Below, piece by piece: positions 17,646 to 40,556 of a DNA stretch of 56,623 bases. This stretch comes from a virus. Below the pieces are notes generated by a model. The model was not told the DNA's origin. It ran no database searches and saw nothing but the letters and a program-made list of their open reading frames with translations. The translations under genes were made by a program, and so were the position numbers. The stretch lies in IMG/VR virus record IMGVR_UViG_3300036851_000701, positions 1 to 56,623 of that record. One strand, 5' to 3'. The first letter of the stretch is position 1. Each line of letters starts with the position of its first letter.

Positions 17646-18682
17646 CCGTCCTCGACCTGGAGGCGCCGCACCTGCCGCTCACCGTGCGGTTCCGGCTCGT
17701 CGACTCGCTCGGCAACCCGACGTCCGACGAGCTGCACCCGTCGGAGGAGCGGCCGCCGACGCTCACGAACGACACGGAGCGCACCCTGAAGCGCACCCTC
17801 ACCGGGCTGCTGCTGCCGCCCGCGGAGGCCGACGACCTCGACCCGCTCACGGCACGCGTGCAGCCGTACGTCTACGACGGTCAGGCGTCCTGGCCGCTCG
17901 GCGTGTTCCTGTTCGCCGACTACCCGCGGTCCCGCACCAGCGCCGGGCGGGCCGCGTCGGCGTCGCTCGTCGACCAGGGCCGCATCCTCGACCAGGACGT
18001 GACGACGGCGTTCAACGTCGCGCAGGGCGCCAACCTCGGCGGCGCCATCGCGGTGCTGCTCGACCGGTTCGGCATCTTCCGCCGGTCGATCGAGGGGACG
18101 AACACCGCCGCCGGGCAGGGCGGCCTGACGTGGCCGGCCGGCACGAAGGGCACCGTGATCGCCAACGAGCTGGCCCGCCAGTGCGGGTTCCTGCCGCTGT
18201 ACTGGGACAGCATCGGGATCGCCGTCGTGCGCACCGTGCCGGTGCCGGACGTGTCGACGCCGACGTTCGTGCTGCGCCGCAACGTCCGGGCGCGGACGGT
18301 GATCGAGGCGGACGTGCCGCTCGACGTGCCGAACACGTACGTGGTGATCGACAACGGCGTGACGGTCGCCCCGATCGTGGTCACCTACCGGGTGCCGGCG
18401 TCGGCGCCGCACAGCGTCAACAACCTCGGCTACGAGGTCACCCGCGTCATCCACGCCCAGGGGCTCGGCAGCACCGCCGCCGCGCTGCAGCTCGCCGCCG
18501 CCGCCGCCGACGAGGACATCCACGCCTACCAGCAGGTGAGCCTGCAGACGCCGCTCGACCCGCGGCACGACACGTTCGACGTCGTGCAGTGGGTCGGCAC
18601 CAACTACCTGGAGCGCCGCTGGACGGCGGTGCTGCACGCCCACGGCCCGATGCAGCACGACCTCGTGAGGATCTACCGGTGA
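17642..18682 (+). CDS. Minor tail protein, baseplate hub-like
   Basis: A 346-residue protein starting 'VTVLDLEAPHLPLTVRFRLV'. It contains 'YVYDGQASWPLGVFLFADYP', 'LANELARQCGFLPLYWD'-type (ANELARQCGFLPLYWD) and 'LRRNVRARTVIEADVP' stretches typical of the hub or gp27/Gp37-like tail proteins of actinophages. GTGA overlaps join it to both neighbours. It likely forms the trimeric hub between the tail tube and the spike encoded next. The assignment combines sequence pattern and order. Confidence 0.65.
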   Translation: MTVLDLEAPHLPLTVRFRLVDSLGNPTSDELHPSEERPPTLTNDTERTLKRTLTGLLLPPAEADDLDPLTARVQPYVYDGQASWPLGVFLFADYPRSRTSAGRAASASLVDQGRILDQDVTTAFNVAQGANLGGAIAVLLDRFGIFRRSIEGTNTAAGQGGLTWPAGTKGTVIANELARQCGFLPLYWDSIGIAVVRTVPVPDVSTPTFVLRRNVRARTVIEADVPLDVPNTYVVIDNGVTVAPIVVTYRVPASAPHSVNNLGYEVTRVIHAQGLGSTAAALQLAAAAADEDIHAYQQVSLQTPLDPRHDTFDVVQWVGTNYLERRWTAVLHAHGPMQHDLVRIYR

Positions 18683-19338
18683 GCGACCCGACCGCGCTCG
18701 CCGTCGCCGCCGCCGGCGGGGCCGTGCGCCGCGCCCGGTCGCTCGGCCAGCTCGCCGACCTGCCGCAGGGCACCGTCAAGTCGTACGACAACGCCACCGC
18801 GGTCGCGTTGGTCGTGATGGACGGCCCGGACATCGAGGCGATCCCGCTCGCCGTCGTGTGCGACACGCCGATCCCGGCCGGCGCCCGCGTGAAGTGCGCG
18901 CTCACCGAACCGCACGGCGGCGTCGTGCTCGGCGTCGTCGGCGGCTCCCCGCAGCACCTGCGCCACTCGACGGCCGGCGACGCGTCGCTCATCGGCACCG
19001 CTCTGACGGTGCGCGCCACCGTCGACGGCCCGACGTTCGACGGCGCGAAGGTCAGCGTCTCGTACTGGGGGGACGCGTCGGTGACCTGGACGAACGACGA
19101 CATCCTGTCGACGTTCTCGGAGGTGTCGCTCGACGACGGCGCCACCTGGCTCAACTCGCGGCAGCACATCAACCGCGGCACGACCGGCGTCGACAACTCC
19201 GACACCCACTCGTTCGGGTCGTTCGCCGAGGGGTCCGCCACCAAGGTCAAGGCCCGCCTGTCGACGACCACCACCGTGGGCGGCCGGGTGAGCCTGAGCA
19301 ACTTCATCCACCACCTGCTCGTCGTACCGGGGGTCTGA
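18679..19338 (+). CDS. Baseplate spike-like protein with OB-fold N-terminal region
   Basis: A 219-residue protein. Residues ~25-95 ('LADLPQGTVKSYDNATAVAL' to 'GVVLGVVGG') have the strand spacing of the OB-fold seen in gp5/gpV-type spike proteins. The C-terminal ~120 residues are polar beta sequence ('FDGAKVSVSYWGDASVTWTN'). Encoded right after the hub-like protein, it is a good candidate for the central tail spike. No lysozyme motif is visible. Confidence 0.55.
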   Translation: MSDPTALAVAAAGGAVRRARSLGQLADLPQGTVKSYDNATAVALVVMDGPDIEAIPLAVVCDTPIPAGARVKCALTEPHGGVVLGVVGGSPQHLRHSTAGDASLIGTALTVRATVDGPTFDGAKVSVSYWGDASVTWTNDDILSTFSEVSLDDGATWLNSRQHINRGTTGVDNSDTHSFGSFAEGSATKVKARLSTTTTVGGRVSLSNFIHHLLVVPGV

Positions 19339-19340
19339 CC

Positions 19341-21110
19341 ATGGCGTCCGTCTGCTTCTCGCCGATCTCGGCCGAGGTCGCCCGCTTCACCCGGCTCACC
19401 GACTGCGGCACCCCGGTGACGGGCGCCGGCGCGGCGGCCGTCGTCGACGGGTTCGTGGACGTGACCGTCGACGCCGACCGGCAGCCGGGCGGCACGTTCA
19501 ACCTGCGCGACGGCACCGGGCTCGTCGCGATATCGGGCGTCGACCCGGCCCAGACGACGACGTCGGACGTCACGATCACGGTGTGCACGCTCGACCCGGA
19601 GGCGCTCGCCCTGCTCGACGCCGCCGCCGTGGCGATCACGACGACCGGCGCCCCGAACGTCACCGGCTGCCCGATCCCGGTGACAGGCGCCCCCGCGGTC
19701 GGCGCCGCGTTCTCGACCCGCGGGCCGCTCGGCCCGGTCGCGGTCGAGCTGTGGCAGCCGCTCGCCGGCGAGAACGCCTGCGCCGGCGAGCCGTGCTGGT
19801 CGCGGTGGCTGCTGGCGCGCGTCGTCAACCTGCGGCGCACCGCCTTCGAGTTCGAGGACGACGCGTTCACGATCCGGCTGCGCGGCACGCTGCTCCACAA
19901 CCCCGGCTGGGGTCGAGGCGTCGGCGACTACCCGCGGGCGGTGCGCTCCGACGAGCCGGTGACGTTCGAGCGGATCTGCGCCGAACCGCCGCCGGCCGGC
20001 TGCGGGCTCGTCGCCGTCACCGGCTGCCCCGGCCACGACCCGTACGGCACCGTCCAGGTGCCCGGCACGTTCGCCACCCAGATCGCGAACCTCCAGGCGA
20101 AGGTCCGCGCCGGGCAGCTCGTCCAGGCGCTCGACCTGGGCGACTCGATCATGCAGGGCGCCTTCTCGTCGAACTGGCGGACCAAGAGCTTCATGGCGCT
20201 CGTCAACGACACGCTCGCCGGCACGCTCGGCGACGGCGGCGCCGGCATGCAGGGCGTCCAGAACGAGTGGCAGGCCGCCAGCTACCTGTCGTCGACCGGC
20301 GGCTGGCTCTTCGCCGGCGGCGGCGCTTCCGCGATGGTCGCCGCCAACCTGACCGCCGGGGCGACGATGACGTGGGCGAACCAGCGCGGCCGGTTCATCC
20401 GGGTCCACTACCAGTCGGCCACCAACACGGGGGTCATGACGGTGGCGATCGACGGCGGCGCCGCCGTGGCCGTCAACACGCAGGGCACGCCCCGCGACCG
20501 GGTCGTCCAGTTCGACGCCGGCTCGACCGGCGCCCACTCGGTGGTCGTGACCGCCCCGACCGCGACGCCGATCCTGCTCGCCGGCGTCGAGGGCAAGAAC
20601 GCGTCGGGCTGGCTGCACCACAACGACGCCGTCGCCGGCACCCGCTCGGACATGCCGCAGCTCGCCTCGCACGCCTCGGGCGGGTCGACGTACAAGGACC
20701 AGATCGTCGACGCCGCCCTGCGCATGATGGGCAGGATCGACGTGCTCTACTACACGTTCGGCAGCAACGACGCCGTGGTGGCGTTCACGCCGGCGACGTT
20801 CGAGCACAACGTGCTGACGACCCTCACCAGGGCACGCTCGTCGAACCCCGACATGGCGATCGTCGTCATCGTCGAGCACTCCGGGTCGATCCCGCAGGAC
20901 TTCCCGGTGTTCGCCGCGTTCCGCGAGATCCTCGAACGGCAGGCCCGCGCCCACGGCGCGGCGTTCGTCGACCTGTGGTCGGAGGGCGACCGCAGCCTGG
21001 CGTGGATGCAGGCCCGCGGCTACATGAACCCGGACAACGTGCACTGGACCGACGCCGGCCACGCGTGGGGGGCGGCGATCATCCTCCGGGCGTTCCAGGC
21101 CGTCGGCTAG
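19341..21110 (+). CDS. Fusion of tail-tube-like domain and SGNH/GDSL hydrolase
   Basis: A 589-residue protein. Residues 1-~215 repeat the landmarks of the major tail protein: 'RLTDCGTPVTGA', 'VCTLDPEALALLDAA', 'VAVELWQPLAG' and 'DAFTIRLRGTL'. From ~255 to the end it is an SGNH hydrolase: block I LGDS with Ser269, block III GSND with Asn476, and block V DNVH with Asp565 and His568. A ~140-residue insert separates blocks I and III. The enzyme probably removes acyl groups from host surface glycans while the N-domain docks on the tail end. ATG follows the previous stop by two bases. The docking role is inference. Confidence 0.82.
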   Translation: MASVCFSPISAEVARFTRLTDCGTPVTGAGAAAVVDGFVDVTVDADRQPGGTFNLRDGTGLVAISGVDPAQTTTSDVTITVCTLDPEALALLDAAAVAITTTGAPNVTGCPIPVTGAPAVGAAFSTRGPLGPVAVELWQPLAGENACAGEPCWSRWLLARVVNLRRTAFEFEDDAFTIRLRGTLLHNPGWGRGVGDYPRAVRSDEPVTFERICAEPPPAGCGLVAVTGCPGHDPYGTVQVPGTFATQIANLQAKVRAGQLVQALDLGDSIMQGAFSSNWRTKSFMALVNDTLAGTLGDGGAGMQGVQNEWQAASYLSSTGGWLFAGGGASAMVAANLTAGATMTWANQRGRFIRVHYQSATNTGVMTVAIDGGAAVAVNTQGTPRDRVVQFDAGSTGAHSVVVTAPTATPILLAGVEGKNASGWLHHNDAVAGTRSDMPQLASHASGGSTYKDQIVDAALRMMGRIDVLYYTFGSNDAVVAFTPATFEHNVLTTLTRARSSNPDMAIVVIVEHSGSIPQDFPVFAAFREILERQARAHGAAFVDLWSEGDRSLAWMQARGYMNPDNVHWTDAGHAWGAAIILRAFQAVG

Positions 21111-21113
21111 CCT
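21108..21113 (+). promoter_or_regulatory. Candidate leaderless -10 box (TAGCCT)
   Basis: TAGCCT begins with the stop codon of the SGNH fusion gene and ends 6 nt before the GTG of the dioxygenase gene, which lacks a ribosome site. Confidence 0.4.
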
Positions 21114-21119
21114 GCGGCC

Positions 21120-22001
21120 GTGGCGACGCGGACGGTGACGCTCGACGACCTGTCGGAACCGGCGCCGCCGCCGTCCGACGCCGACTGGAACGACGCCGGC
21201 GTGGTGGTGCTGGCCGGCCTGCTCGACGACGAGCTGGTCGCCGACTACCAGGACGAATGGAGGCAGGCGAACGGCTGGCACGGCTGCCGGCTGCGCTCGG
21301 ACCCCGGCGCCCTCTACCACCTGCCGGTCGGCGTCGCAGGCGAGCCGTGGGTGCTCGACGCGGACCGCCCCGGCGGCTGGCCCGACTGCACCCCCTATCG
21401 CCGTTACGACGCCCTCGCCCGGATCTGCTGTCACCCGCTCGTCGGCGCCGTGCTCCACGACCTGATCGGCGAGCCGGCCGCCGTGCACCTGAACCTCACC
21501 GGCTGGGAGTCCACCGGGCGCGACTGGCACCAGGACACCTACCTGAACGAGCCGGAGGTCGGCGACGCCTACGCCGCCGTCTGGTTCGCGCTCGGCGACG
21601 TGCACCCCGGCTCGGGGCCGTTCCAGTACGTGCCGGGCTCCCACCGCTGGCACGTCCTGCAGCGCGACCGGTTCGCCGGCCTGCTCGACCTGGACGACCC
21701 GGACTGGCCGGCCCGGTCGGAGGCGATCCTGGCGCCGCTCGTCGCCGCCGAGGTCGAGCGGCGCGGCGCCGCCGTCGTCGACTACCTGCCCCGCAAGGGC
21801 GACGTCCTGTTCTGGCACGGCCGGCTCTACCATCGTGGGTCGAAGCCGACGCTGCCGCACGCCTACCGGCCGTCGCTCATCGCCCACTACAGCGGCGTCC
21901 ACCACCGGTCGGCGATGCCGGCCGCGGTGAAGCACGACGCCGGCGGCTGGTACTTCCCGCTCGGCGGCGAGGCAGGCGTCGAGGGCAACACCGGCCGATA
22001 G
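21120..22001 (+). CDS. Phytanoyl-CoA dioxygenase (PhyH) family Fe(II)/2-oxoglutarate oxygenase
   Basis: A 293-residue enzyme with the double-stranded beta-helix metal triad: HQD (His137, Asp139) in 'DWHQDTYLN' and distal His238 in 'LYHRG'. A 2-oxoglutarate-binding arginine follows (Arg250, 'YRPSLIAHYSG'). 'PFQYVPGSHRW' is the typical PhyH stretch. It would hydroxylate a small molecule or a sugar or lipid group; the substrate is unknown. It opens a cassette of sugar-modifying genes, suggesting a glycan-linked substrate. A role in base hydroxylation is less likely from family but not excluded. Confidence 0.82.
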   Translation: MATRTVTLDDLSEPAPPPSDADWNDAGVVVLAGLLDDELVADYQDEWRQANGWHGCRLRSDPGALYHLPVGVAGEPWVLDADRPGGWPDCTPYRRYDALARICCHPLVGAVLHDLIGEPAAVHLNLTGWESTGRDWHQDTYLNEPEVGDAYAAVWFALGDVHPGSGPFQYVPGSHRWHVLQRDRFAGLLDLDDPDWPARSEAILAPLVAAEVERRGAAVVDYLPRKGDVLFWHGRLYHRGSKPTLPHAYRPSLIAHYSGVHHRSAMPAAVKHDAGGWYFPLGGEAGVEGNTGR

Positions 22002-22006
22002 CCGAC

Positions 22007-22714
22007 GTGGCGAACCCCGGCGAACCGCTCGTCGAGCTGCACCACTTCTACCACTGCTACGCGGCCGGCGACTGGGCGCAGGCCGTCACCGAGCACTGCG
22101 ACGCCCTGACCCGCTTCGGGCTCTACGACCGTCTCGCGTCGCTGCACGTCGGGTTCGTCGGCACCGACGAGCAGGTCGCAGCCGTGCGCTGCACGCTCGA
22201 CGTGCTCACCCCCGACTACCGGGTGTGCGCCCAGACCGAGGCGGGCTGGGAGCAGGTCACCCTCACGGCGCTGCACGAGTTCGTCCAGGACCACGACGGG
22301 CTCGTCTCGTACGCCCACACGAAGGGGGCGTCGCGGGTCGACCCGGTCGACGGGCCGTGGCGCCGGTCGATGGAGTACTACAACTTCGTCGACTGGCGAC
22401 GCCCGGCGGCCGCGCTGGCGTTCGATAACGCGCTGGTCGCCGGCTGCCACTGGACGCACGGGACGCTGATCGAGTGGTACGGCGACTCCGGCGACAGCCA
22501 GCTGGTCGCCGGGCAGGGCACATCTGGCTGGTTCGGCGGCAACTACTGGTGGGCGCGCTGCGAGGTCCTGCGCCGGAACGTGCCGCCGGAGCCGGACACC
22601 CGCCACCACGCCGAGCACTGGATCGGGCTGATCTCGGGGATGGTGCCGTTCGAGCACGGCTCCGTGTTCGATCTGAACCCCGGGCCGGTCGGGAACTTTA
22701 AGGTCGATTGGTGA
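22007..22714 (+). CDS. Glycosyltransferase-associated conserved protein
   Basis: A 235-residue protein with 'LVSYAHTKGASR', 'RRSMEYYNFVDWRR' and 'WFGGNYWWARCEVLRR'. This motif set occurs in proteins linked to polysaccharide or LPS glycosyltransferases, where the pattern is usually YxHTKG...W...GNFWWA. I cannot name a catalytic residue. GTG start; the end overlaps the next gene by 4 bp. Probably transfers or recognises a sugar in the same pathway as its neighbours; this is inference. Confidence 0.6.
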   Translation: MANPGEPLVELHHFYHCYAAGDWAQAVTEHCDALTRFGLYDRLASLHVGFVGTDEQVAAVRCTLDVLTPDYRVCAQTEAGWEQVTLTALHEFVQDHDGLVSYAHTKGASRVDPVDGPWRRSMEYYNFVDWRRPAAALAFDNALVAGCHWTHGTLIEWYGDSGDSQLVAGQGTSGWFGGNYWWARCEVLRRNVPPEPDTRHHAEHWIGLISGMVPFEHGSVFDLNPGPVGNFKVDW

Positions 22715-23457
22715 TCGTCGAGACGTGGGTGACGGTCCACGACCAGGACCTGGTGGCGGCGTGCGAGCGGGACGGCCGCTTCGCCGGCCTCCCGAACGTC
22801 GGCTATCTGTTCGTCGGCCCCCGACCCGTCGACCGGCTGCCGGCCGGCACGCGGCTGCTCGTCGCCCGCGACCACCCGCCGCACCACGAGGACCTGCCGC
22901 ACTTCTACGACCTGACGGGCTGGCACGTCCTCGCCCGCCGCGCCGCCGCCGACCATCTGGTGTGCGTCCAGTACGACATGCGCCCGTTCGCCGCGGGTCT
23001 GGCGGGCCGGGCGGTCGAGCTGCTCGCCGACGTCGACGTGGTGGCGTTCACCCCCGCCGGGTTCGGCCCGAACTGGATGCTGCTCATCGACGGGTTCGAG
23101 GACGCCTGGCGGCGGGGCATGGCCGCCGTCGGCGCCGATCCCGACCGGTGGCCGCCGTTCGACGTCTGGCCGACCACGGCCGGCACCGCCTGGCGGCGGG
23201 AGGCGTTCGTCGAGTTCCTGGCGTGGTTCGAGCCGCTGTTCGCCGTGTGGGCCGCCGACCGGTGGGCGGGGCACCTGGCCGAACGGTCGCTTCACGGCTG
23301 GCTGAGCGACACCGGTCGGACGGCCGGCTACCTGCCGGGGGTGGTCGAGCACGAGCGGGCCGACTGTCACGGCACGGGGGCGCTGATGCGCGGCGAGCGC
23401 GACGTCTACGAGGCGAGGGACCGCGAGTTCCGGTACCAGTCCTCGTACGGGCCGTAG
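22711..23457 (+). CDS. Hypothetical protein of glycan cassette (possible glycosyltransferase)
   Basis: A 248-residue protein with 'VCVQYDMRPFA', 'PTTAGTAWRREAFVEFLAWF', 'WAGHLAERSLHGWL' and 'DCHGTGALMRG'. The order (N-terminal nucleotide-sugar-like region, then conserved WAGHLAER and DCHGTG) suggests a GT-A-like enzyme, but no DxD motif is obvious. GTG at 22711 gives a 4-bp overlap with the gene before; a TTG one codon earlier is possible. Its 3' end overlaps the convergent FkbM gene by 52 bp. Confidence 0.55.
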   Translation: MIVETWVTVHDQDLVAACERDGRFAGLPNVGYLFVGPRPVDRLPAGTRLLVARDHPPHHEDLPHFYDLTGWHVLARRAAADHLVCVQYDMRPFAAGLAGRAVELLADVDVVAFTPAGFGPNWMLLIDGFEDAWRRGMAAVGADPDRWPPFDVWPTTAGTAWRREAFVEFLAWFEPLFAVWAADRWAGHLAERSLHGWLSDTGRTAGYLPGVVEHERADCHGTGALMRGERDVYEARDREFRYQSSYGP

Positions 23458-24005
23458 CCGGCGGCGACGACGTCCTCGACGACCCGCTCGAACCCGGCGG
23501 CCGACAGCCGGCGGTGGATGGCGTCCTTGCGGTCGGGGCCGTCGCGGTACAGGTTGTGCTCGACGGTGACGAGCCGGACGTGCCAGCGGTCGAAGTCGAT
23601 CCCGTCGAGCACGTGCAGCTCGTGGCCCTCGACGTCGACCGACAGGTAGTCGACCACGGCCGGCGCGGCGGCGTCCTCCAGGAAGCGAGAGAGCGTGTCG
23701 GCGGTCGTCAGCCGGGCGGCCGCGTCGACGCTCACCGCGATCCCGTCGAACGGGAGGGCGACGGCCCGGTCGGAGGCGAGGGCGCACACGCAGGTCGACC
23801 CCGACCGGCTGGCGGCGAGCCGCCGGTGGGCGTCCGGGTTGGGTTCGACGCACAGCCCGGACCAGCCGTAGTCCCGTTCCAGGGCGAGCGTGTTCGAGTG
23901 CTCGACGCCGTCGTAGGCGCCGACGTCGACGAACCAGCCGCCGCGCAGCCCGCCGAGCTGCTCGACCACCCAGGCGTCCTGCCCGGCCTGGGCGTGCCAG
24001 GTCAC
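23406..24005 (-). CDS. FkbM-family SAM-dependent methyltransferase
   Basis: A 199-residue enzyme. SAM-binding motif I is 'WFVDVGAYDGVEHSNTL' at residues ~26-42, and the FkbM signature 'YLSVDVEGHELHVLDG' lies near residue 130. Family members O-methylate sugars or related hydroxyls. It is slightly shorter than the usual 220-280 residues but complete. GTG overlaps the stop of the upstream minus-strand glycosyltransferase, so the three minus-strand genes form one operon. Its stop lies within the convergent plus-strand gene. Confidence 0.82.
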   Translation of the reverse strand: MTWHAQAGQDAWVVEQLGGLRGGWFVDVGAYDGVEHSNTLALERDYGWSGLCVEPNPDAHRRLAASRSGSTCVCALASDRAVALPFDGIAVSVDAAARLTTADTLSRFLEDAAAPAVVDYLSVDVEGHELHVLDGIDFDRWHVRLVTVEHNLYRDGPDRKDAIHRRLSAAGFERVVEDVVAAGYGPYEDWYRNSRSLAS

Positions 24006-24958
24006 AGGATCCGGCCGGCGAGCGCCTCGACGTCGGCGGCGAACCGGCCGGCCACTGACCGGTAGAGGGCCTCGGCGTGCGCCTGCCAGCGATCGTAGTT
24101 GTCGAGCACGTCGCGCAGCCGCACGTGGGGCCAGACGGCGACGTGCGAGTGACCGTGCCGGAACATCGACGCCTCCGATACGAGCGCCGGTCGGCGGGCG
24201 GCGATCAGGTAGTCGAACGCCGACGACAGGCCGGCGTCGGGCTGGCCGGGGTGGTAGAGCAGGCAGCACACGTCGCAGGCGGCGAGCATGCCGACGACCT
24301 CGACCTCGGGCTGATGGGCGAGGGTCTGGACGATCCGGATGCCGGGCTTGGCGGCGGCCGCCTGCCGGGCGGCGTCGAGGATCGCCGGGGCGTATAGCGG
24401 GCCGCCGGCGGCACCGTTGAAGTACGCCTCCGGGGTGTGCAGCCTGACGACGGCTGCGTCGACGGCGTCGGCTACCTCGGCGGCGACCTGGTCGAACCCC
24501 TTGTGCGGGAACGCGAACCCGAACGAGGCGATCTCCGGCGGGTCGTTTCGCCAGCGGGGTACCTGCGGCGGCGAGTCCGGCAGCGGCCGGCTGACGCCGT
24601 GCACCCGGTCGCCGTCGCCGACGCCCGGTTCGAGGACCAGGACGTGGTCGAACCCGCGGGCGAGGAGCCCGTCGGCGAGCGGGCGCAGCGTCGCCGGCTC
24701 GTAGTTGTGGAGCACCGCCAGCGTCGGGCAGCCCTCGCGCCCGGGCGTCAGCCATGGCATCAGGTCGGCCCGGTAGTTGACGACCACGACGTCCGGCTCG
24801 ACGACGGCCAGGCTCCTGCGGTAGTCGTCGCCGTCGCCGCAGTCGGCGTGCGCTACGCCGAGGAGTCCCTCGGAGAGGCGGGCGGCCATCCGCAGGCCGA
24901 GGTCGTGGATGCCGCACACCGGCGAGTGGGCGTGGTCGACGACCAGGACCCGGGTCAC
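24002..24958 (-). CDS. Glycosyltransferase (GT-B, family 1/4-like)
   Basis: A 318-residue protein with a GT-B layout. The N-terminal domain has 'RVLVVDHAHSPVCGIHDLGL' and 'VVVNYRADLMPWL', and a C-terminal Rossmann-like domain begins near 'IASFGFAFPHKGFDQV'. The donor-site region is around 'AGLSSAFDYLIAARRPALVS'. It would transfer a sugar from a nucleotide donor to a glycan or protein acceptor. GTG overlaps the upstream stop by 4 bp. Family identity is good; the acceptor is unknown. Confidence 0.75.
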   Translation of the reverse strand: MTRVLVVDHAHSPVCGIHDLGLRMAARLSEGLLGVAHADCGDGDDYRRSLAVVEPDVVVVNYRADLMPWLTPGREGCPTLAVLHNYEPATLRPLADGLLARGFDHVLVLEPGVGDGDRVHGVSRPLPDSPPQVPRWRNDPPEIASFGFAFPHKGFDQVAAEVADAVDAAVVRLHTPEAYFNGAAGGPLYAPAILDAARQAAAAKPGIRIVQTLAHQPEVEVVGMLAACDVCCLLYHPGQPDAGLSSAFDYLIAARRPALVSEASMFRHGHSHVAVWPHVRLRDVLDNYDRWQAHAEALYRSVAGRFAADVEALAGRIL

Positions 24959-26187
24959 GCCCCTATGACCTGGAACTGCGGGCACGGCACGAGGAGGCGG
25001 CCGCCGGCGGCCAGGTAGCCGGCCTCGCGGCGCCGGAACTCGGCGATGAAGTGCCAGGGCAGGACGAGCAGGTAGTCGGGGCGGGCGGCGCGCATGTCGG
25101 CCTCGGCGACGATCGGGATGTCGGTGCCGACGGTGCGGAGCCCCCACTTCTGTTCCTGCCGCTCGGCGATCGCGGTGACCAGCGTCGAGTCGAGCCCGAA
25201 GTACTGGAGCAGCGTGTTGCCCTTGGTGGAGGCGCCGTATCCCCAGACGGTCTCGCCGCGCCGGCGGGCGTCTCGGACGAACCCGACGACCTGATCGCGG
25301 AGCGCTTCGAGCCGCCGGGCGAACGCCTGCCAGATCTCGATGCCGTTGTAGCCGCCGCCCAGCTCGTGGGCGTACAGCGAGTCGAGCCGCATCCGGGCGA
25401 CGTCGCGCTGCGGCTGGGTGCCGTAGCCGGCGGGGTCGGCGTCGTCGCGCTGGCACAGCAGCCGGATCGAGCCGCCGTTGACGTCGTTGAGCTGGGCGTC
25501 GACGATCCGGAACCCGGCCTGCCCGAGGGTGCGGTGGAGGGTGTGGAGCGTGTAATAGCGGGCGTGCTCGTGGCAGACGTTGTCGAAGGCGAGCTGCTGG
25601 ATCATGAGCGGCGTGTACGAGAGCTGGACGACGAACAGCCCGTCGTCGGCGAGCAGCCCGCGGACGGCTTCGAGGAACTTGGCGGGGTCGGCGAGCTGGT
25701 AGAGCATGGCGATGCATGTGACGACCTTGGCGCGGCCGAAGCCGGCTCGGATCTGGTCGGCTATCGCCTCGGTGAACGGTTCCTGGACGACGAGGTCGGC
25801 GATCTGTTCGCACTCGTAGCGGAACGAATCGTCGGCCGGGTCGACGCCCACCAGGTAGGGACGATAGGCGGCCAGCGTCATGTCCTCGACGGCCCCCAGG
25901 AGCGTCCCGTCGTTCGACGCGACGTCGACCCACAGGTCGCCGACCTCGACCGATACGACGTCGAGGGTCGAGGCGACGACGTCGGCGAGCGCCCGCCGCA
26001 TGCTCTCGTTGGTACCGGACCGGTACCAGTAGCGGCCCCACATCAGCTCGGGCGGCGGCTGCTCCGACAGGTGCACGAGCCCGTCCGGGTCGCGCACGAG
26101 TTCGAGCGGGAACCGCCCAGCCCTCGGCTCCTCGCCGGGCGCCAGGAAGTCGGACACGTACAGGTCGCCGAGCGAGAGCAGCCGCAT
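24955..26187 (-). CDS. NDP-hexose C-methyltransferase-like protein (EvaC/TylC3 type)
   Basis: A 410-residue protein of the three-domain sugar C-methyltransferase family. SAM motif 'VDVASNDGTLL' lies near residue 88. The central signature 'NVCHEHARYYTLHTLHRTL' with 'NDVNGGSIRLL' follows. The C-terminal Rossmann domain has 'VWGYGASTKGNTLLQYFG' and 'YLLVLPWHFIAEF'. The N-terminal cysteine pairs that bind zinc in most relatives are absent: the protein begins directly at the LGDLYVSDF segment. ATG start with a TACCAT box 8 nt upstream. It likely makes a branched-chain deoxysugar precursor for the adjacent glycosyltransferases. Confidence 0.8.
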   Translation of the reverse strand: MRLLSLGDLYVSDFLAPGEEPRAGRFPLELVRDPDGLVHLSEQPPPELMWGRYWYRSGTNESMRRALADVVASTLDVVSVEVGDLWVDVASNDGTLLGAVEDMTLAAYRPYLVGVDPADDSFRYECEQIADLVVQEPFTEAIADQIRAGFGRAKVVTCIAMLYQLADPAKFLEAVRGLLADDGLFVVQLSYTPLMIQQLAFDNVCHEHARYYTLHTLHRTLGQAGFRIVDAQLNDVNGGSIRLLCQRDDADPAGYGTQPQRDVARMRLDSLYAHELGGGYNGIEIWQAFARRLEALRDQVVGFVRDARRRGETVWGYGASTKGNTLLQYFGLDSTLVTAIAERQEQKWGLRTVGTDIPIVAEADMRAARPDYLLVLPWHFIAEFRRREAGYLAAGGRLLVPCPQFQVIGA

Positions 26188-26195
26188 CGCCGTCG

Positions 26196-26201
26196 ATGGT
26201 A
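26196..26201 (-). promoter_or_regulatory. Candidate leaderless -10 box (TACCAT) for minus-strand operon
   Basis: On the minus strand TACCAT lies 8 nt before the ATG at 26187, with no Shine-Dalgarno site between. Confidence 0.45.
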
Positions 26202-26212
26202 GGCGGCGCGTC

Positions 26213-26218
26213 TACCGT
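26213..26218 (+). promoter_or_regulatory. Candidate -10 box (TACCGT) for plus-strand glycosyltransferase
   Basis: TACCGT lies 9 nt before the ATG at 26228. Together with the minus-strand box 12 bases away it makes a compact divergent promoter in a 40-bp gap. Confidence 0.4.
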
Positions 26219-26227
26219 GGGCGCGCG

Positions 26228-27277
26228 ATGGTCGTCTACTGCTACCCGGCCGACGCGTACGGGTGCGGCCACTACCGGGTGCGCTGGCCGGCGGCGGCGG
26301 CCGCCGCGCACGGCGTCGACGTGCACGTCAAGGAACCCCGCGAGTCGGGGATCGGCGGCCTCGCCGTCGGCGGGAAGCTATCGACGATCTACGCGCCCGC
26401 CGACGCCGACGTGATCGTGTTCCAGCGGCCGTCGAACGGCATCCTCGCCCAGGCGGTGCCGCTGCTCCGGGCGCAGGGCATCGCGGTCGTCGTCGACGTG
26501 GACGACGACCTGGCGAACATCCACCCGGCGAACCCGGCGTTCCGGCACCTGCACCCGAAATGGAACCCGGCCAACAACTGGCGGCACGTCGCCTCCGCCT
26601 GCCGGCACGCCACGCTCGTGACGGTGTCGACGGCGGCGCTCGTGCCGCGCTACGCGGCGCACGGCCGGGTGCGGGTGCTCGACAACTACGTGCCAGCCCG
26701 GTTCCTGGACGTCGAGCGCCCGGTCCACGACGAGCCGTGGGTCGGCTGGGCCGGGTCGATGCACTCGCACCCGGACGACCTGCGGCCGGCGGCCGGCACG
26801 CTCGGCCAGCTCGCCCGGCAGGGCCGGCGGGTGCACGTCGTCGGCGACGGCGTCGGCGTCGACCGCGAGATCGGCAGCGACGCCTACACCTCCACCGGCG
26901 TCGTCGACTTCCAGGACTGGATGCCGCGGGTCGCCGAGCTGGACGTGGCGGTGGCGCCGCTCGCGGACACGGCGTTCAACCAGGCGAAGTCGCGGCTGAA
27001 GCCGCTGGAGTACTCGGCGGTCGGGGTGCCGTGGGTAGCGTCGCCGACCCGCGAGTACGCCCGGCTGGCGGCGACCGGCGCCGGCGCCACCGCGGTGCGT
27101 CCCCGCGACTGGCTGAGGGAGCTGCGCCGGCTGCTCGACGACGACGGCTACCGCGCCGAACGCTCGGCCGTGGCCCGTGCAGTGGCGGCCGACAACACGA
27201 TCGAGGCGCACGGCTGGCGGTGGCAGGAGGCGTGGCAGGCCGCCTACGAGATGGAGCACCCGAGGGTCACCGCCTGA
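26228..27277 (+). CDS. Glycosyltransferase (GT-B, family 4-like)
   Basis: A 349-residue protein with 'ADAYGCGHYRVRWPA' at the N-terminus and a middle 'VVVDVDDDLANIHPANP'. 'WVGWAGSMHSHPDDL' starts the C-terminal domain, and a donor-site region follows around 'KSRLKPLEYSAVGVPWVAS'. These are typical for GT4-type enzymes that extend surface or virion glycans. No membrane segment, so it works in the cytoplasm. It is divergent from the minus-strand trio and followed by lysis genes. Confidence 0.8.
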   Translation: MVVYCYPADAYGCGHYRVRWPAAAAAAHGVDVHVKEPRESGIGGLAVGGKLSTIYAPADADVIVFQRPSNGILAQAVPLLRAQGIAVVVDVDDDLANIHPANPAFRHLHPKWNPANNWRHVASACRHATLVTVSTAALVPRYAAHGRVRVLDNYVPARFLDVERPVHDEPWVGWAGSMHSHPDDLRPAAGTLGQLARQGRRVHVVGDGVGVDREIGSDAYTSTGVVDFQDWMPRVAELDVAVAPLADTAFNQAKSRLKPLEYSAVGVPWVASPTREYARLAATGAGATAVRPRDWLRELRRLLDDDGYRAERSAVARAVAADNTIEAHGWRWQEAWQAAYEMEHPRVTA

Positions 27278-27293
27278 ACCGCCGCGAAACGCC

Positions 27294-27299
27294 TACAGT
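27294..27299 (+). promoter_or_regulatory. Candidate leaderless -10 box (TACAGT)
   Basis: TACAGT lies 7 nt before the ATG of the small acidic protein gene and may drive the lysis operon. Confidence 0.4.
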
Positions 27300-27306
27300 C
27301 GGTCGC

Positions 27307-27402
27307 ATGAGCGACACCCCCAGCGAACCCGACGAGCCGACGGCGACCGAGCCGGAGGACGACGCCCCCGGCGAACTGATCGCCGACGACGTGGACGGCT
27401 GA
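27307..27402 (+). CDS. Small acidic protein (31 residues)
   Basis: A 31-residue, strongly acidic peptide (MSDTPSEPDEPTATEPEDD and similar), proline- and glutamate-rich, with no fold signal. It sits between the last glycosyltransferase and the endolysin, and its stop is followed directly by the endolysin GTG. ATG start with a TACAGT box at leaderless spacing. It may be a real small protein or a leader that couples translation to the endolysin. Confidence is limited by size. Confidence 0.5.
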   Translation: MSDTPSEPDEPTATEPEDDAPGELIADDVDG

Positions 27403-27403
27403 C

Positions 27404-28141
27404 GTGGCCTGGCGGCTCGCCGAGAGCCTGCGGGCGCTGCGGGCCGAGTGCGACGCCGCCGCCCCGGACCGATCGAAGGCGAGCGACGGCACGATCGGCG
27501 ACGCGGCGCACGCCGCCTCCCGGTCGGACCACAACCCGAACGCCGACGGCGTGGTATGCGCCCTCGACATCACCCACGACCCCGACGGCGGCGCCGACTG
27601 CCACGCGTGGGCCGAGCGGGTGCGCACCGGCGGCAACCCCAACCTGAAGTACATCATCTTCGCCGGCCGCATCGCATCTATCACCCGCGGGCTGGAATGG
27701 CGTCCGTACGGCGGCCGAAACCCGCACCGCAATCACATGCACGTCTCGGTCGGCCGCGGCGAGGACGGCCGATCGACCGGCCCGTACGACGACGCCGGTT
27801 CGTGGGGCATCTCCTCGGCTGCTCCGGTGCCGGCCCCCCCTTCGCCGGAGCCGGAGCAGCCGGCGGACCAGGCGCCGCCGTTCCCGCTGCCGCAGGGCTG
27901 GTACTTCGGGCCGCGCTCCGGGCCGCAGCAGTCGGTGTCCGGGTTTCACGGCCACGGCGACGACCTCGCCGTCTGGCAGCAGCGCATGGCCGACCGCGGC
28001 TGGCCGATCGCCGTCGACGGCCGCTACGGCAACCAGACCAGGGGCGTGGCCGAGGCGTTCCAGCGGGAGAAGGGCCTCGACGTCGACGGCCTCATCGGAC
28101 CGATTACCTGGCGGGCGGCGTGGACCGAACCGATCACGTAG
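27404..28141 (+). CDS. Endolysin: M15-like peptidase plus peptidoglycan-binding domain
   Basis: A 245-residue lysis enzyme. Residues ~1-120 form a zinc peptidase of the M15 (D-Ala-D-Ala carboxypeptidase-like) type: His43 in 'SRSDHNPNADGV', Asp55 in 'CALDITHDP' and the 'HRNHMHVSVG' motif with His111/His113. A Pro/Glu-rich linker (~138-165) leads to a C-terminal PG_binding_1-like domain ('DLAVWQQRMADRGWPIAVDG', 'FQREKGLDVDGLIGPITW'). It cuts peptide cross-links in host peptidoglycan at the end of infection. No signal sequence, so it needs the adjacent holin candidate. Confidence 0.87.
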   Translation: MAWRLAESLRALRAECDAAAPDRSKASDGTIGDAAHAASRSDHNPNADGVVCALDITHDPDGGADCHAWAERVRTGGNPNLKYIIFAGRIASITRGLEWRPYGGRNPHRNHMHVSVGRGEDGRSTGPYDDAGSWGISSAAPVPAPPSPEPEQPADQAPPFPLPQGWYFGPRSGPQQSVSGFHGHGDDLAVWQQRMADRGWPIAVDGRYGNQTRGVAEAFQREKGLDVDGLIGPITWRAAWTEPIT

Positions 28142-28228
28142 GCAGCCTTGCGACGCACCAGGGGTGACACCGGGCGACAGGCACCGCGGAGGACAGGCGC
28201 GCCCGGCGCCGACGTGCGTGCGTGACCG

Positions 28229-28519
28229 GTGAGCGGCGAGCTGCTCCTCCCCGGCGCGCTCGTCGGCGGCCCGCTGATCTTCGCGGTGTTCTTCGTGCTT
28301 AGAGGCATCCTCCGGTTCCAGCGCGACTTCACCGACACGTACGCCCGCGAGCTGACCTCGCTGCGCTCGAAGATCGACGCCCACGAGGCCAGGATCGGCC
28401 TGCTGCGCGACGCCGTCGACGAGTGCGAGGCCGAACGGCGGTCGCTGCTCGCCGAGCGGCTGGTCTGGCAGCGCGAGCGCGACCAGCTGATCCAGTCGGT
28501 CGAACGAGGCGAACGGTGA
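28229..28519 (+). CDS. Lysis-module membrane protein with coiled coil
   Basis: A 96-residue protein. An N-terminal membrane helix ('LVGGPLIFAVFFVLRGIL') is followed by a charged coiled coil ('LRSKIDAHEARIGLLRDAVD' to the end). This layout resembles Rz/spanin-like or holin-accessory proteins, and the gene follows the endolysin. GTG start; the distance to the nearest GGAGG is long (about 30 nt), so the start is less certain. It overlaps the next gene by 4 bp. Confidence 0.65.
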   Translation: MSGELLLPGALVGGPLIFAVFFVLRGILRFQRDFTDTYARELTSLRSKIDAHEARIGLLRDAVDECEAERRSLLAERLVWQRERDQLIQSVERGER

Positions 28520-29196
28520 GCGACATCGACCGGCTGGGGCGCGGCCCGCTGCCGGCGGTGACGTCGATCCTCGGCGGGCTCGCCCTGCTGCTCGTCGTCG
28601 TCGGCGTGGCGTTCGCCCAGTGGCGGGCCGCCGAGGACCGGGCGTCGCGCATCGAGCTGCAGCTGCAGGACTCGAACCAGCGGATCGGGCAGCTCGTCGA
28701 CCAGGTCGAGGGCTTGGGCGCCGAGCCGGTGACAACCGCCCCGCCGAGCGACCCGGTGCTCCCGGTCGCGCTCGGCCCGACCGACGCCCAGGTGCGGCTG
28801 GCGGTCGTCGACTACCTGACGCGCAACCCGCCGACGCCGGGCCGGGCGCCGACCGACATCGAGATACAGGCCGCGGTGACCGCCTACTGCACGGCCCGCG
28901 GCGGCTGCATCGGCCCGGCCGGAGACGACGGCAGAGACGGCCAACCCGGCGTACCGGGAGCGACCGGCAGCACCGGCCCGGGACCGACCGACGAGCAGGT
29001 CGCCGGCGACGTCGCCGCCTACTGCGACACCCACGGCGGCTGCGTCGGCCCGCCGGGACCGGCCGGCGCGCCGGGACCAGCAGGTCCGAGCGTCGACGCC
29101 TGTGACCCGCCGGCCGGCTACAACCCGATCGTCGACCCCGATCAGCCCGGTTGGACGTGCTACACGACCACGACGACCCCGCCGACCCCGCCGTGA
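28516..29196 (+). CDS. Membrane-anchored protein with collagen-like segments
   Basis: A 226-residue protein: N-terminal membrane helix ('ILGGLALLLVVVGVAFAQW'), coiled coil ('IELQLQDSNQRIGQLVDQVE'), then two copies of a unit. Each unit has DxQVxxxVxxYC...GGCxGP followed by Gly-X-Y collagen-like repeats ('GPAGDDGRDGQPGVPGATG' and 'GPPGPAGAPGPAGP'). It ends in a Thr/Pro tail. The topology suggests an outward-facing trimeric stalk. It sits between two lysis membrane proteins, so a role in lysis timing, spanning the envelope or surface display is possible; none is proven. Confidence 0.7.
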   Translation: MSDIDRLGRGPLPAVTSILGGLALLLVVVGVAFAQWRAAEDRASRIELQLQDSNQRIGQLVDQVEGLGAEPVTTAPPSDPVLPVALGPTDAQVRLAVVDYLTRNPPTPGRAPTDIEIQAAVTAYCTARGGCIGPAGDDGRDGQPGVPGATGSTGPGPTDEQVAGDVAAYCDTHGGCVGPPGPAGAPGPAGPSVDACDPPAGYNPIVDPDQPGWTCYTTTTTPPTPP

Positions 29197-29492
29197 GCAA
29201 GCTGGCCGCCACCGTCGCACGGGAACCGGCGCTGCTCACCTCCGCCGTTCGGGCATCGCTGCTCGCCGCCGCCGGATTCGGACTCGACTGGTCCCCTGAG
29301 GCGATCGCCGGGCTCATGATCGCCCTGGAGGCGTGGCTGGCGCTCATCACCCGGTCCTTCTCGGTGCCGACCAGCGAGGTGAACACCAAGATCGACGAGG
29401 CCAAGGCCGTGCAGCGGGTCGAGATCCACGACTACCTCGCCGGAGGCCGACCGCTGCGAGCAGCACGACCCAACCCGACGGACGGCGGCTAG
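29193..29492 (+). CDS. Putative holin
   Basis: A 99-residue protein with a hydrophobic core ('AVRASLLAAAGFGLDWS' and 'IAGLMIALEAWLALITRSF') that could form two short membrane helices. The tail is hydrophilic and contains RSFSVPTSEV, a pattern common after the membrane part of actinophage holin-like proteins. It is the last gene of the lysis block, overlapping the previous gene by 4 bp. A pair of hairpins follows. Function is inferred from size, topology and place. Confidence 0.6.
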   Translation: MSKLAATVAREPALLTSAVRASLLAAAGFGLDWSPEAIAGLMIALEAWLALITRSFSVPTSEVNTKIDEAKAVQRVEIHDYLAGGRPLRAARPNPTDGG

Positions 29493-29510
29493 CACGCTAC
29501 GCTGACGAAA

Positions 29511-29577: not shown

Positions 29578-30693
29578 TCAGGGAGAAGGTTCGGCCGCCT
29601 CGGCGACCGCCGCCTCCAGCAGGTGGGCGGTGAGCACCATCCGCCGCAGGTCGATCGGCCAGCGGTCGTGGTCGACGCCGAGGTCGTCGAGCGTCGAGTT
29701 CACTTTCTGATGGTGGAGGGTGCGCACGTACTCGACGACCGGGTCGACGACGCCGGCGAGGAGCTGGGCGATGAGCTTCTGGACGTGCAGCGCCGCCGCC
29801 GACAGCGCCTGGCGGGTCGCCTCGTCGTCGGTGTCCGGCTCGTCGCTCGTGGTTTGCGGCGAGAGGCCCTCTGTGGGCGTCTCCTGCGTCTCCGGCTGCG
29901 GTCCGGCGTCGTCGTGCGCCGACAGCGTTAGGAGCAGCTCAGCGGCTCGTGCGGCCTGCTCTTCGGTGAGGTAGGCGACCTTCCAGCCGTGCAGCAGCTC
30001 GTCGCCCTTCCAGGCGGCGCGCAGCTCGTCGCGCTCGTCGTCGCTCAGCGCTTCGATCCGCGCTTGCAGCTCGCGCAGGACCGGCTCGTCGGCGAGCTGG
30101 CGCTCCTCGACGACCTCGACCTCGATCGGGGCGCCGTCCTCGTCGACGGCGGCGCCCAGCTCCTCCGGCACGTAGGCGGCGCCGAGCAGCACGTCGGAGA
30201 ACAGCATCCGACAGAGCTGGCCGAGGGCGCGAGCCCACAGCATCGACTGCGTGTACGTCTCCCACGGCAGCCGCTTGCCGTCACGCGACCGGGAGAACGG
30301 CTTGCCCTCCCTCAGCTGGCACAGGCCGGCATGCACGGCGTCGTCGAGCGTGAACGTGAACGTCATCTCGTCGCCGGAGTCGCCGCGCCGGCCGGTCACC
30401 GTCGCCGCCGTCGACGACGTCGAACCGACGATCGAGTGCCCGGCCCGCCGCACGAGCGCCGCCATGCCCTCCGGCGACACCGACGGCTTGCCGTCGATCA
30501 CGTGCACGAACCGCATGGCGGTCGTGACCCCCCAGCCCAGCTCGCGGCCCATCAGCGCGGCGGTGACGACGTTCTCCGGGTGGCCGCGGTACTGGCCCGG
30601 CACGAGGCCGGAGGCGGCAAGCTGCTCGGCCTGAGCGAGCATCATCTCCCACTCGCCGGCCGACGGCGCCACATGCACGAGGTCGCGGGTCAC
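29578..30693 (-). CDS. recT: RecT-like single-strand annealing protein
   Basis: A 371-residue protein. Its first ~210 residues match the RecT/RedB-like annealing family of actinophages: 'QAEQLAASGLVPGQYRGHP', 'AALMGRELGWGVTTAMRFVH' and 'IDGKPSVSPEGMAALVRRAG'. The C-terminal ~120 residues are acidic, low-complexity and then helical, probably a regulatory or partner-binding tail. It anneals complementary DNA strands during phage recombination. Its GTG overlaps the stop of the Gam-like gene, forming a minus-strand recombination operon. No RecE-type exonuclease was seen nearby. Confidence 0.82.
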   Translation of the reverse strand: MTRDLVHVAPSAGEWEMMLAQAEQLAASGLVPGQYRGHPENVVTAALMGRELGWGVTTAMRFVHVIDGKPSVSPEGMAALVRRAGHSIVGSTSSTAATVTGRRGDSGDEMTFTFTLDDAVHAGLCQLREGKPFSRSRDGKRLPWETYTQSMLWARALGQLCRMLFSDVLLGAAYVPEELGAAVDEDGAPIEVEVVEERQLADEPVLRELQARIEALSDDERDELRAAWKGDELLHGWKVAYLTEEQAARAAELLLTLSAHDDAGPQPETQETPTEGLSPQTTSDEPDTDDEATRQALSAAALHVQKLIAQLLAGVVDPVVEYVRTLHHQKVNSTLDDLGVDHDRWPIDLRRMVLTAHLLEAAVAEAAEPSP

Positions 30694-31355
30694 AGCTCAC
30701 CGTCCAGGACGTCAAGCGTGCGGGGCACGCACTCGAACCGGTCGGGCTCGCGGGGCACCAGCACCCGTACCCAGCCGCCGTACACCTCGCCATAGGCGTC
30801 CACCGCCGGCACGGCCAGCCAGTCATCGCCGACGTCGACGGCGTCGAGCAGCACCCCGTCCTCGCTCTGCTTGGCCGTCAGAGCGGCGGCCATCGCCTGC
30901 TTGTCGGGCTCGACCTTCACCCGCACCCACTCGACCGCCACCCCGTCGTAGGTGCTCACCTGCGGAACGGTCACCCGCTCGGCGAACTCCTTGGCGTCGA
31001 CGTCGATCCTCGTTTTCGCGGGGCGCAGCCGCAGCTCCCCCCACGGCAGCTTCTCGGTGCGGGCGCCCGACACCAGGGCGTGGCCTCGCATCCAGTTTTC
31101 GAGCTGCCGCCGCAGGTAGTCCACCTTACGGTCGAGCTTCGCCAACTCGCCGTCCCGCCAGCGCTCGGCGACGGCGACGTCGGCGTCGGCGACCCGGTTC
31201 ACCTGCGCCCGCTCGCCGTCGAAGCGTGCCAGCAGCCGCAGCATCCGGTTGGCGGCCACCAGGTCGGCGGGGTCGACGTCCTCGCTGTCGGCCTCGAACA
31301 GGGCGTCGAGATCGTCGTGCGAGGCGTCGCGCGCCTCGTCGAACGTGCTCATCAT
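30690..31355 (-). CDS. Gam/Gp157-like host-nuclease inhibitor, internal start
   Basis: A 221-residue product from a double ATG with a strong GAGGAGGAACCC ribosome site. The helical region 'ERWRDGELAKLDRKVDYLRR' is followed by the '(E)KLPWGELRLRPAKTRIDVD' stretch. Together these match the Gam-like/Gp157 proteins that often accompany RecT and shield linear DNA ends. The frame continues upstream without a stop into an HNH domain (next entry). The CCTACCCC-type element and an operator-like palindrome just upstream argue that this start is used. Confidence 0.7.
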   Translation of the reverse strand: MMSTFDEARDASHDDLDALFEADSEDVDPADLVAANRMLRLLARFDGERAQVNRVADADVAVAERWRDGELAKLDRKVDYLRRQLENWMRGHALVSGARTEKLPWGELRLRPAKTRIDVDAKEFAERVTVPQVSTYDGVAVEWVRVKVEPDKQAMAAALTAKQSEDGVLLDAVDVGDDWLAVPAVDAYGEVYGGWVRVLVPREPDRFECVPRTLDVLDGEL

Positions 31356-31760
31356 GGGTTCCTCCTCAGGGGTAGTGTTCGCTACAGGGATAGCTTTAGC
31401 CTTGGCTCGGCGTCGGTACCTGCGCTCGCGGCAAGCGTCGGTGTTTGCTTGGCGGCACTCTGCGCAGCGGCAGCGGAGCCGTTTGTAACGCGAATCCGTG
31501 CCGTGCTCGGGAATGGGGTGATGATGAACGATGTGGCAGTCGCCGCAAAGCAGATCACATTTCAGCAGCTCGCCGGTGAGTCGGCCGAGGCTCCAGCGAG
31601 CGAACACGTGCGCCAGGTTCGTGACCTTGCTCGACGGATCGCGGTGGTGGAAGTGCAGATCGTCGTCCGAGCCACACAGCACGCATCGGCCGCCGAGCAG
31701 GTCTATAGCCCAGGCCTTTCGACGCTGATATCGGATCCGATAGTAGGCGGCGTCGCTCAT
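30690..31760 (-). CDS. HNH nuclease domain in frame with Gam-like protein
   Basis: The full frame encodes 356 residues. Residues 1-~80 are an HNH/zinc domain ('GGRCVLCGSDDDLHFHHRDP' with His and Cys ligands, then 'LLCGDCHIVHHH'). Residues ~85-115 add a second Cys cluster ('YKRLRCRCAECRQANTDACR'). A short linker ANTTPEEEP, translated from the regulatory element, joins it to the Gam-like part. Either a natural fusion, or an HNH gene whose stop has been lost and which reads through the next gene's leader. The ATG has a TAGAGT box 7 nt upstream (leaderless). Nicking or homing activity is inferred. Confidence 0.65.
   Translation of the reverse strand: MSDAAYYRIRYQRRKAWAIDLLGGRCVLCGSDDDLHFHHRDPSSKVTNLAHVFARWSLGRLTGELLKCDLLCGDCHIVHHHPIPEHGTDSRYKRLRCRCAECRQANTDACRERRYRRRAKAKAIPVANTTPEEEPMMSTFDEARDASHDDLDALFEADSEDVDPADLVAANRMLRLLARFDGERAQVNRVADADVAVAERWRDGELAKLDRKVDYLRRQLENWMRGHALVSGARTEKLPWGELRLRPAKTRIDVDAKEFAERVTVPQVSTYDGVAVEWVRVKVEPDKQAMAAALTAKQSEDGVLLDAVDVGDDWLAVPAVDAYGEVYGGWVRVLVPREPDRFECVPRTLDVLDGEL
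31381..31394 (-). promoter_or_regulatory. Operator-like GCTA-N6-TAGC palindrome before the Gam-like start
   Basis: On the minus strand this reads GCTATCCCTGTAGC, followed by ACTACCCCTGAGGAGG and the ATG pair. It matches the GCTA-N6-TAGC operators at three early plus-strand promoters, but no TANNNT box lies 9 nt downstream here. It lies within the coding sequence of the upstream HNH part. Confidence 0.5.
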
Positions 31761-39578: not shown

Positions 39579-39835
39579 GCCTGACCGAGCTGCAGGCCGT
39601 AGCGCTGGTGGCGGTGCTGGACCACTACCAGCGCTACGGCTGGCCATCGGACTACCGGGCGCTGCACGCCGCGACTGGGCGCAGCCAGTACGGGATGCAG
39701 CGCACTATGGCTTCGCTGGTGAAGCGGGATCTTGTTCGCAAGTTGACGTTCGGCGGCAGGGTGGAGTTCGCGCCGACGGAGCGGGCGCGGCGGCTGCTCG
39801 GCGAGCCGGTCGACGGCGGGCCGGTACCGTCGTGA
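39575..39835 (+). CDS. Small winged helix DNA-binding protein
   Basis: An 86-residue protein with 'LTELQAVALVAVLDHYQRYG', 'YRALHAATGRSQYGMQRTMA' and the wing 'LVRKLTFGGRVEFAPTERAR', a winged helix like the N-terminal domain of LexA-type or MarR-type regulators. GTG overlaps the helicase stop. It may regulate early genes; the target is unknown. Confidence 0.65.
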   Translation: MSLTELQAVALVAVLDHYQRYGWPSDYRALHAATGRSQYGMQRTMASLVKRDLVRKLTFGGRVEFAPTERARRLLGEPVDGGPVPS

Positions 39836-40554: not shown

Positions 40555-40556
40555 CG

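Follow-up and report, generated by a model that had tools for sequence, protein, structure and literature searches.

The virus genome analysed here, IMG/VR record IMGVR_UViG_3300036851_000701, was taken at its full length of 56,623 bases (the window) and carries seven adjacent genes at positions 21120-27277, between tail and lysis genes, whose predicted products include glycosyltransferases, methyltransferases and an oxygenase. This cassette is a mosaic of three parts: a widespread gene for a GT-B glycosyltransferase, an optional gene for a PhyH-type oxygenase, and a coupled block of five genes encoding a sugar C-methyltransferase (C-MT), the protein GT5, an FkbM-family methyltransferase, and the proteins p3 and p2. 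Judged by its genes and their surroundings, the cassette is probably a modular set for the cytoplasmic glycosylation of virion proteins in an actinobacteriophage. Of what is new here, the strongest element is the five-gene block, which appears to be mobile and combines three orphan protein families with a zinc-free C-methyltransferase.

The genes of the cassette and the neighbors referred to below are as follows; all seven cassette open reading frames have the order, strands and coordinates assigned to them in a preliminary description of the sequence.

21120-22001, plus strand: PhyH-type Fe(II)/2-oxoglutarate oxygenase, optional part of the cassette (PF05721, 6.6e-17)
22007-22714, plus strand: p2, orphan family, member of the five-gene block, proposed glycosyltransferase (signature 'YxHxKG...GNxWW')
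22708-23457, plus strand: p3, orphan family, member of the five-gene block, proposed glycosyltransferase (VQYD motif)
23406-24005, minus strand: FkbM-family methyltransferase, proposed sugar O-methyltransferase (PF05050, 1.9e-17; TIGR01444 above cut-off)
24002-24958, minus strand: GT5, conserved family (24-member alignment), proposed GT-B glycosyltransferase, fold unproved
24955-26187, minus strand: C-MT, sugar C-methyltransferase of the TylC3/TcaB9 kind (PF08484, 2.6e-41)
26228-27277, plus strand: GT-B glycosyltransferase (Glyco_trans_1_4), last gene before the lysis genes (PF13692, 4.8e-8; phrog_7162, 1.1e-36)
17642-18682: upstream tail protein (phrog_1887)
19341-21110, plus strand: flanking tail protein with SGNH/GDSL hydrolase domain, not part of the cassette (phrog_792, phrog_15881, PF13472)
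27404-28141, plus strand: flanking endolysin with peptidoglycan-binding domain, not part of the cassette (phrog_1493, PF01471)
40527-41426, plus strand: TAGT, DNA-type glycosyltransferase in a separate module ~13 kb from the cassette (PF20691, 6.3e-42)

The p2 and p3 genes overlap by 7 nucleotides (nt), the convergent 3' ends of FkbM and p3 overlap by 52 nt, and the minus-strand trio of FkbM, GT5 and C-MT has a 4-nt overlap at each junction; the divergent starts of C-MT and GT-B are separated by 40 nt. The tail proteins upstream (phrog_1887, phrog_792 and phrog_15881) and the endolysin downstream confirm the placement between tail and lysis genes, which puts genes for glycosyltransferases and methyltransferases within the virion region. 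An actinobacterial host is very likely, given that the major capsid protein is ~35% identical to relatives in Streptomyces and Gordonia phages, that the GC (guanine plus cytosine) content is high (64-74% in 2-kb windows, and 72-74% in the cassette region itself), and that no tRNA genes were found in the window. A nucleotide search of positions 15000-29500 against phages gave no match.

The arrangement of the cassette is not due to chance, since the closest relative of the window, G051 (a single record that appears as loci L122, L123, L127 and L136), retains p2, p3, FkbM, GT5, C-MT and GT-B, arranged and oriented as in the window, with identities of 82% for p2 and 77% for GT5. G051 has no PhyH gene, and its distal tail genes differ from those of the window. 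In a scan with the zinc-free C-MT, all five block genes were also found in L180, L191 and, rearranged, in L137, and four of them in L138; genes in these loci were called with a purpose-written script, which missed the p2 of L137 that tblastn shows. The 4-nt overlaps from C-MT to GT5 and from GT5 to FkbM are conserved in the window, L138, L180 and L191, and the convergent FkbM/p3 overlap in the window, G051, L180 and L191, while the loci carrying the block span 41-69% GC. Among the C-MT loci examined (the best 80 of 355 confirmed viral relatives), GT5 relatives are present in 25 and FkbM relatives in 40 by tblastn or 50 by profile.

The genes beside the block vary. Tail genes and the endolysin flank it in the window and G051. 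In L180 (45% GC) it starts 108 nt after a phrog_10 major head protein gene (3.5e-62), of a family that we take to be T4-type. In L191 (41% GC) a gene with a tail-fiber-type N terminus (phrog_697 and others) is followed by small genes, a gene read by eye as GT2-like, and then the block; some genes upstream of the block this locus also has a tryptophan-halogenase-like gene (L191:1747-3222; phrog_2928, 7.6e-99). Two proteins upstream of the block in L137 gave no matches. We tentatively propose that the five genes constitute a mobile and self-contained module for a C- and O-methylated virion sugar, plugged in beside capsid or tail genes by unrelated phages that span about 41-73% GC, and the same tentative proposal would take in three unrecognized enzyme families and a zinc-free branch of C-MT.

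Comparison of the window with G051 points to purifying selection on p2, p3, FkbM and GT5, as their ratios of nonsynonymous to synonymous differences (pN/pS) are 0.35, 0.40, 0.50 and 0.49 respectively; those of C-MT and GT-B are 0.67 and 0.72. Synonymous distances are near saturation and third-position GC content is extreme, so that only the contrast of pN with pS was used. Ten other gene pairs of the window and G051 have values of 0.37-0.98, including 0.46 for the endolysin, 0.58 for the C-terminal part of the capsid protein and 0.98 for the tape measure protein, and the block belongs to the better-conserved portion of the two genomes. GT-B, with 54% identity, is more diverged than the block, as if it had been exchanged or were evolving faster. 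The cassette is real and, by these measures of selection, functional.

Four of the seven products have clear family assignments (PhyH, FkbM, C-MT and the last GT-B), and their names in the preliminary description stand; the glycosyltransferase nature that it gave to p2, p3 and GT5 was upheld by no tool. The assigned families do support a gene set for building and methylating sugars. In PhyH, the residues H137-Q-D139, H233/H238 and R250 are unchanged across 14 relatives, such that the iron and 2-oxoglutarate residues are kept. Assignment of PhyH as an orthosomycin-type sugar oxygenase gained no support, as a weak match of the single sequence to EvdO2 (0.0063) vanished with the 14-sequence profile, the top matches of which are phytanoyl-CoA dioxygenase and SnoK. 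The last GT-B scores 33.8 bits against PF13692, relative to a cut-off of 27.

C-MT has a C-terminal Methyltransf_14 domain (PF08484, 141.5 bits) and a domain binding S-adenosylmethionine (SAM; PF13489, 48.7 bits). It matches D-mycarose 3-C-methyltransferase (PDB 4rv9) at 6.4e-39 over residues 14-407, and nearly the full length of C-MT aligns with this enzyme and with TcaB9. The SAM domain, the Methyltransf_14 domain and an HEH motif are shared with TylC3 and TcaB9; the window C-MT differs in having no N-terminal zinc-binding cysteines and no match to the zinc-binding domain PF08421. The cysteines are likewise missing from the C-MT of G051 and of a 735-kb phage, and since an N-terminal CxxC is present in none of the best 80 viral relatives their absence is no local accident. 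Unlike the window enzyme, zinc-bearing C-MTs of other phage cassettes do have the cysteines. The zinc-free branch (L136-L215) is very common in viral contigs, with 355 of 386 pattern matches confirmed, and its loci range from 25 to 69% GC and frequently lie inside long runs of glycan-like genes. As a single-sequence query, C-MT gave no match against genome contigs.

No credible match was found for p2, p3 or GT5 in Pfam, NCBIfam or PDB, either as single proteins or as families, and p2 had none in PHROG. All three are nevertheless conserved families. Relatives of p2 are present in G051, L137, L180 and L191, and p2-like domains also occur in a 1755-amino-acid protein of the 735-kb phage (L128:18165-23432), which combines hexapeptide, methyltransferase, several family-2 glycosyltransferase and two p2-like domains. 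On account of this fusion we would guess that p2 is a glycosyltransferase. Scanning with p2 turned up five loci in bacteria; in the two that were read (L130 and L131), no glycan genes were seen around the p2 relative. The p3 family is represented by a six-member alignment. In the GT5 alignment C15, G16, G21, R124, G147 and K153 are invariant, and the stretches 'SFGFxFPxKGF', with an invariant lysine, and 'SSxxDY' resemble what we take to be GT4 motifs, from which GT5 too may be guessed to be a glycosyltransferase. None of the 24 GT5 members matches a relevant Pfam family, no PDB match was obtained, and comparison of GT5 with GT-B by hhalign was not significant. AlphaFold models built from two-sequence alignments were uninformative, with mean confidence (pLDDT) of 40.7 for p3 and 39.2 for GT5.

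GT-B is the most constant part of the cassette and a widespread phage gene found repeatedly beside virion genes. An alignment-based scan confirmed 342 viral relatives, the best 80 of which were taken as GT-B loci; neighborhood counts cover 81 loci (L002, L003 and L008-L086), with L001, L004, L005, L006 and L007 excluded from clustering. Many of the loci collected in the analysis are near-duplicates (e.g. L002/L116, L062/L063, L072/L073 and L139/L140). A homologue of the window tail gene at 17642 is also present in 28 of the 81. Genes with Pfam support for a role in glycan synthesis occur in 22 of these 28 tail-linked loci, and 15 have at least three, which does not bear out the earlier view that the set is unusually large for a phage; a C-MT is present in 9. 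These genes concentrate near GT-B, constituting 67 of 390 genes within eight genes of it as opposed to 2 of 143 farther away, and they include family-2 transferases, a TOD1/MUCI70-like transferase, an epimerase, a GDP-mannose 4,6-dehydratase-like protein and methyltransferases. Where the tail gene homologue is missing, just 5 of 53 loci hold such a gene. In L010 GT-B follows the capsid region, and in the Streptomyces phage isolates Zuko and KimJongPhill it directly precedes the terminase and portal genes, accompanied by a UDP-glucose dehydrogenase; KimJongPhill also has a methyltransferase directly upstream of GT-B. A window tail protein used as a single-sequence query found no viral relatives.

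PhyH follows a different pattern. A small methyltransferase gene lies no more than two genes away in 34 of 35 viral PhyH loci, and a GT-B gene no more than eight genes away in 25 of 35; three of the ten loci with no GT-B nearby are cut by a contig end. The trio of PhyH, small methyltransferase and GT-B (L087-L121) comes mainly from phages with 40-50% GC and frequently lies immediately ahead of the terminase, a family represented in 20 of the 35 loci. Two PhyH queries found no relatives among 50,697 phage records. Among 45 GT-B-type records surveyed for PhyH (hand-picked, as were the 49 surveyed for TAGT below, from more than 100), it is present in three: the window, L002 and L016. The latter two have the order of the window, with tail genes, PhyH, other genes, GT-B and a lysis gene (judged by eye for L016), and the genes in the middle differ. 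The seven genes had been described as one unit; a single indivisible unit is ruled out, since G051 has no PhyH, and since L002 and L016 have PhyH and GT-B but not the five-gene block.

Virion proteins as the target, one of several proposed at the outset, receive indirect support, because the block and GT-B recur beside capsid, tail and packaging genes in unrelated phages and no membrane enzyme is present. No convincing transmembrane segment was found in the seven proteins, with Kyte-Doolittle maxima of 0.89-1.61 in what is a crude test. Late in infection, C-MT would use SAM to methylate a carbon of a nucleotide sugar supplied by the host, probably a nucleoside diphosphate (NDP)-4-keto-6-deoxyhexose. 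GT5, p2 and p3 would transfer and extend sugars, FkbM would O-methylate a hydroxyl as a cap, and in phages that have it PhyH would oxidize either the acceptor residue or the sugar. As the constant enzyme, GT-B would probably form the linkage common to all such phages. The whole pathway would be cytoplasmic and act on subunits of the capsid or tail, either ahead of assembly or in the course of it, and the resulting sugar might shield the particle or influence adsorption.

Several points weigh against virion glycosylation. The genes may owe their position to late expression or to a hotspot for insertions and not to the target, and the window and G051 share the block but differ in their distal tail proteins. 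No 4,6-dehydratase is present among the seven genes, and p2, p3 and GT5 are only proposed, not proved, to be glycosyltransferases. Many low-GC carriers hold C-MT, GT5 and FkbM within long runs of unannotated genes, the cassette enzymes are not detectably homologous at the sequence level to Corndog gp35-gp38 (see below), and the phage is uncultivated. A collagen-like protein, suggested previously as one possible target, was rejected as a clear virion target, since it has a strong N-terminal hydrophobic segment and is located with the lysis genes. Encoded at 28516-29196, beside the lysis genes and the hydrophobic product of 28229-28519, and with a 59% identical copy in G051, it resembles a membrane or lysis protein more closely than a fiber.

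It is unlikely that the cassette alters the host surface (wall teichoic acid, arabinogalactan or capsule) so as to block superinfection or aid progeny release. C- and O-methylated sugars occur in bacterial surface glycans, and the cassette adjoins the lysis genes. Host-surface action of phage glycosyltransferases is well known, and for those of freshwater actinophages DNA protection or superinfection blocking was proposed by the authors (PMC10202952). The route would nonetheless be an unusual one, because the seven proteins include no flippase, polyprenyl-linked transferase or transmembrane enzyme, in which the cassette differs from Gtr-type surface conversion with its membrane flippase and membrane-bound transferase. 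The late-gene neighborhood of the cassette, and the position of the block after a capsid gene in the presumably T4-like phage L180, also speak against it.

Decoration of phage DNA, with the cassette extending a base-linked sugar laid down by TAGT, is very unlikely. A TAGT is encoded in both the window and G051, as in TAGT/TET DNA hypermodification. However, of 49 GT-B or PhyH records only 2 have it (the window, plus a match that falls short of the curated cut-off), as do 2 of the 11 records with the block or C-MT (the window and G051), although records may be fragments, and it lies ~13 kb away among replication-type genes. Neither TET (PF12851, searched without a positive control) nor a C5-methylase (PF00145) was detected in the window. 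DNA, also among the targets first suggested, is the poorer candidate, because TAGT, which most carriers lack, belongs to a module of its own. TAGT itself is flanked by a ParB-like gene (39832-40554) and a gene for a UDG-fold protein (41432-41947), and the three may possibly form a DNA base glycosylation module. That the sugar genes are merely hitch-hikers without a shared product, assembled as a mosaic at a tail-lysis junction tolerant of insertions, is highly improbable: the parts do separate freely and GT-B diverges more than the block between the window and G051, but the order of the genes, their 4-nt coupling and the overlap of FkbM with p3 are kept across very different GC contents, GT5 and FkbM relatives recur around C-MT, and pN/pS is well under 1.

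Virion glycosylation genes of the Corndog type are already known in phages. Corndog and other Cluster O mycobacteriophages have an O-methyltransferase gene and three glycosyltransferase genes between the portal and protease genes (PMC4351075), and these are said to modify the capsid and tail tube (PMC11600133 and PMC12363180, citing Freeman 2023). The cassette is likened to this system because position and enzyme types agree: in both, an actinobacteriophage has a methyltransferase and several glycosyltransferases among its virion structural genes. The two differ in that the window genes lie between tail and lysis genes, and that the four Corndog genes named in the parts of PMC4351075 consulted include neither C-MT nor PhyH. 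At the sequence level, no Corndog record was among the phage tblastn matches of any of the seven cassette proteins. Comparable in layout are cassettes of soil phages (L013, L015, L028, L034, L042, L048, L053 and others), in which GT-B is at or near the end of a run after the tail genes and the run holds glycosyltransferase, methyltransferase and C-MT genes, as in the window. These have GT2-type enzymes and a zinc-domain C-MT, whereas the window has p2, p3, GT5, FkbM and a zinc-free C-MT. A dehydratase family (cluster 118; GDP_Man_Dehyd in L048) occurs in L013, L048, L053 and L062. What is new is the apparently mobile block, the orphan families and the zinc-free C-MT; no paper describing a pairing of PhyH with a glycosyltransferase, or a C-methyltransferase cassette, in a phage was found among open-licence PubMed Central papers.

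Phage particles are usually regarded as bare protein. If the cassette does act on virions, glycosylation would be a common and modular trait of soil and freshwater phages and not a mycobacteriophage curiosity, with effects on adsorption, antibody recognition and particle stability. The orphan families p2, p3 and GT5 and the zinc-free C-methyltransferase branch are concrete enzymes for assay, and the trio of PhyH, methyltransferase and GT-B offers a testable role for a phage PhyH that is otherwise easily labelled metabolic.

Elsewhere in the window, the capsid gene (102-1733) opens the record and terminase, portal and MuF-like genes (49005-56100) close it, an arrangement that suggests a circularly permuted record with its cut among the head genes. 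The N-terminal part of the SGNH tail protein (19341-21110) and the 225-amino-acid product of 2923-3600, which follows the capsid genes, look like paralogues, as both match the same gene in L010 and G051. A second GDSL/SGNH-like protein, distant from the tail genes, is encoded at 43701-44318, with a weak match below cut-off (PF13472, E 0.00087). An open reading frame on the minus strand at 30690-31760, adjoining a RecT-like gene, joins an HNH endonuclease domain (residues 4-120) to a Mu Gam-like end-protection domain (residues 155-298).

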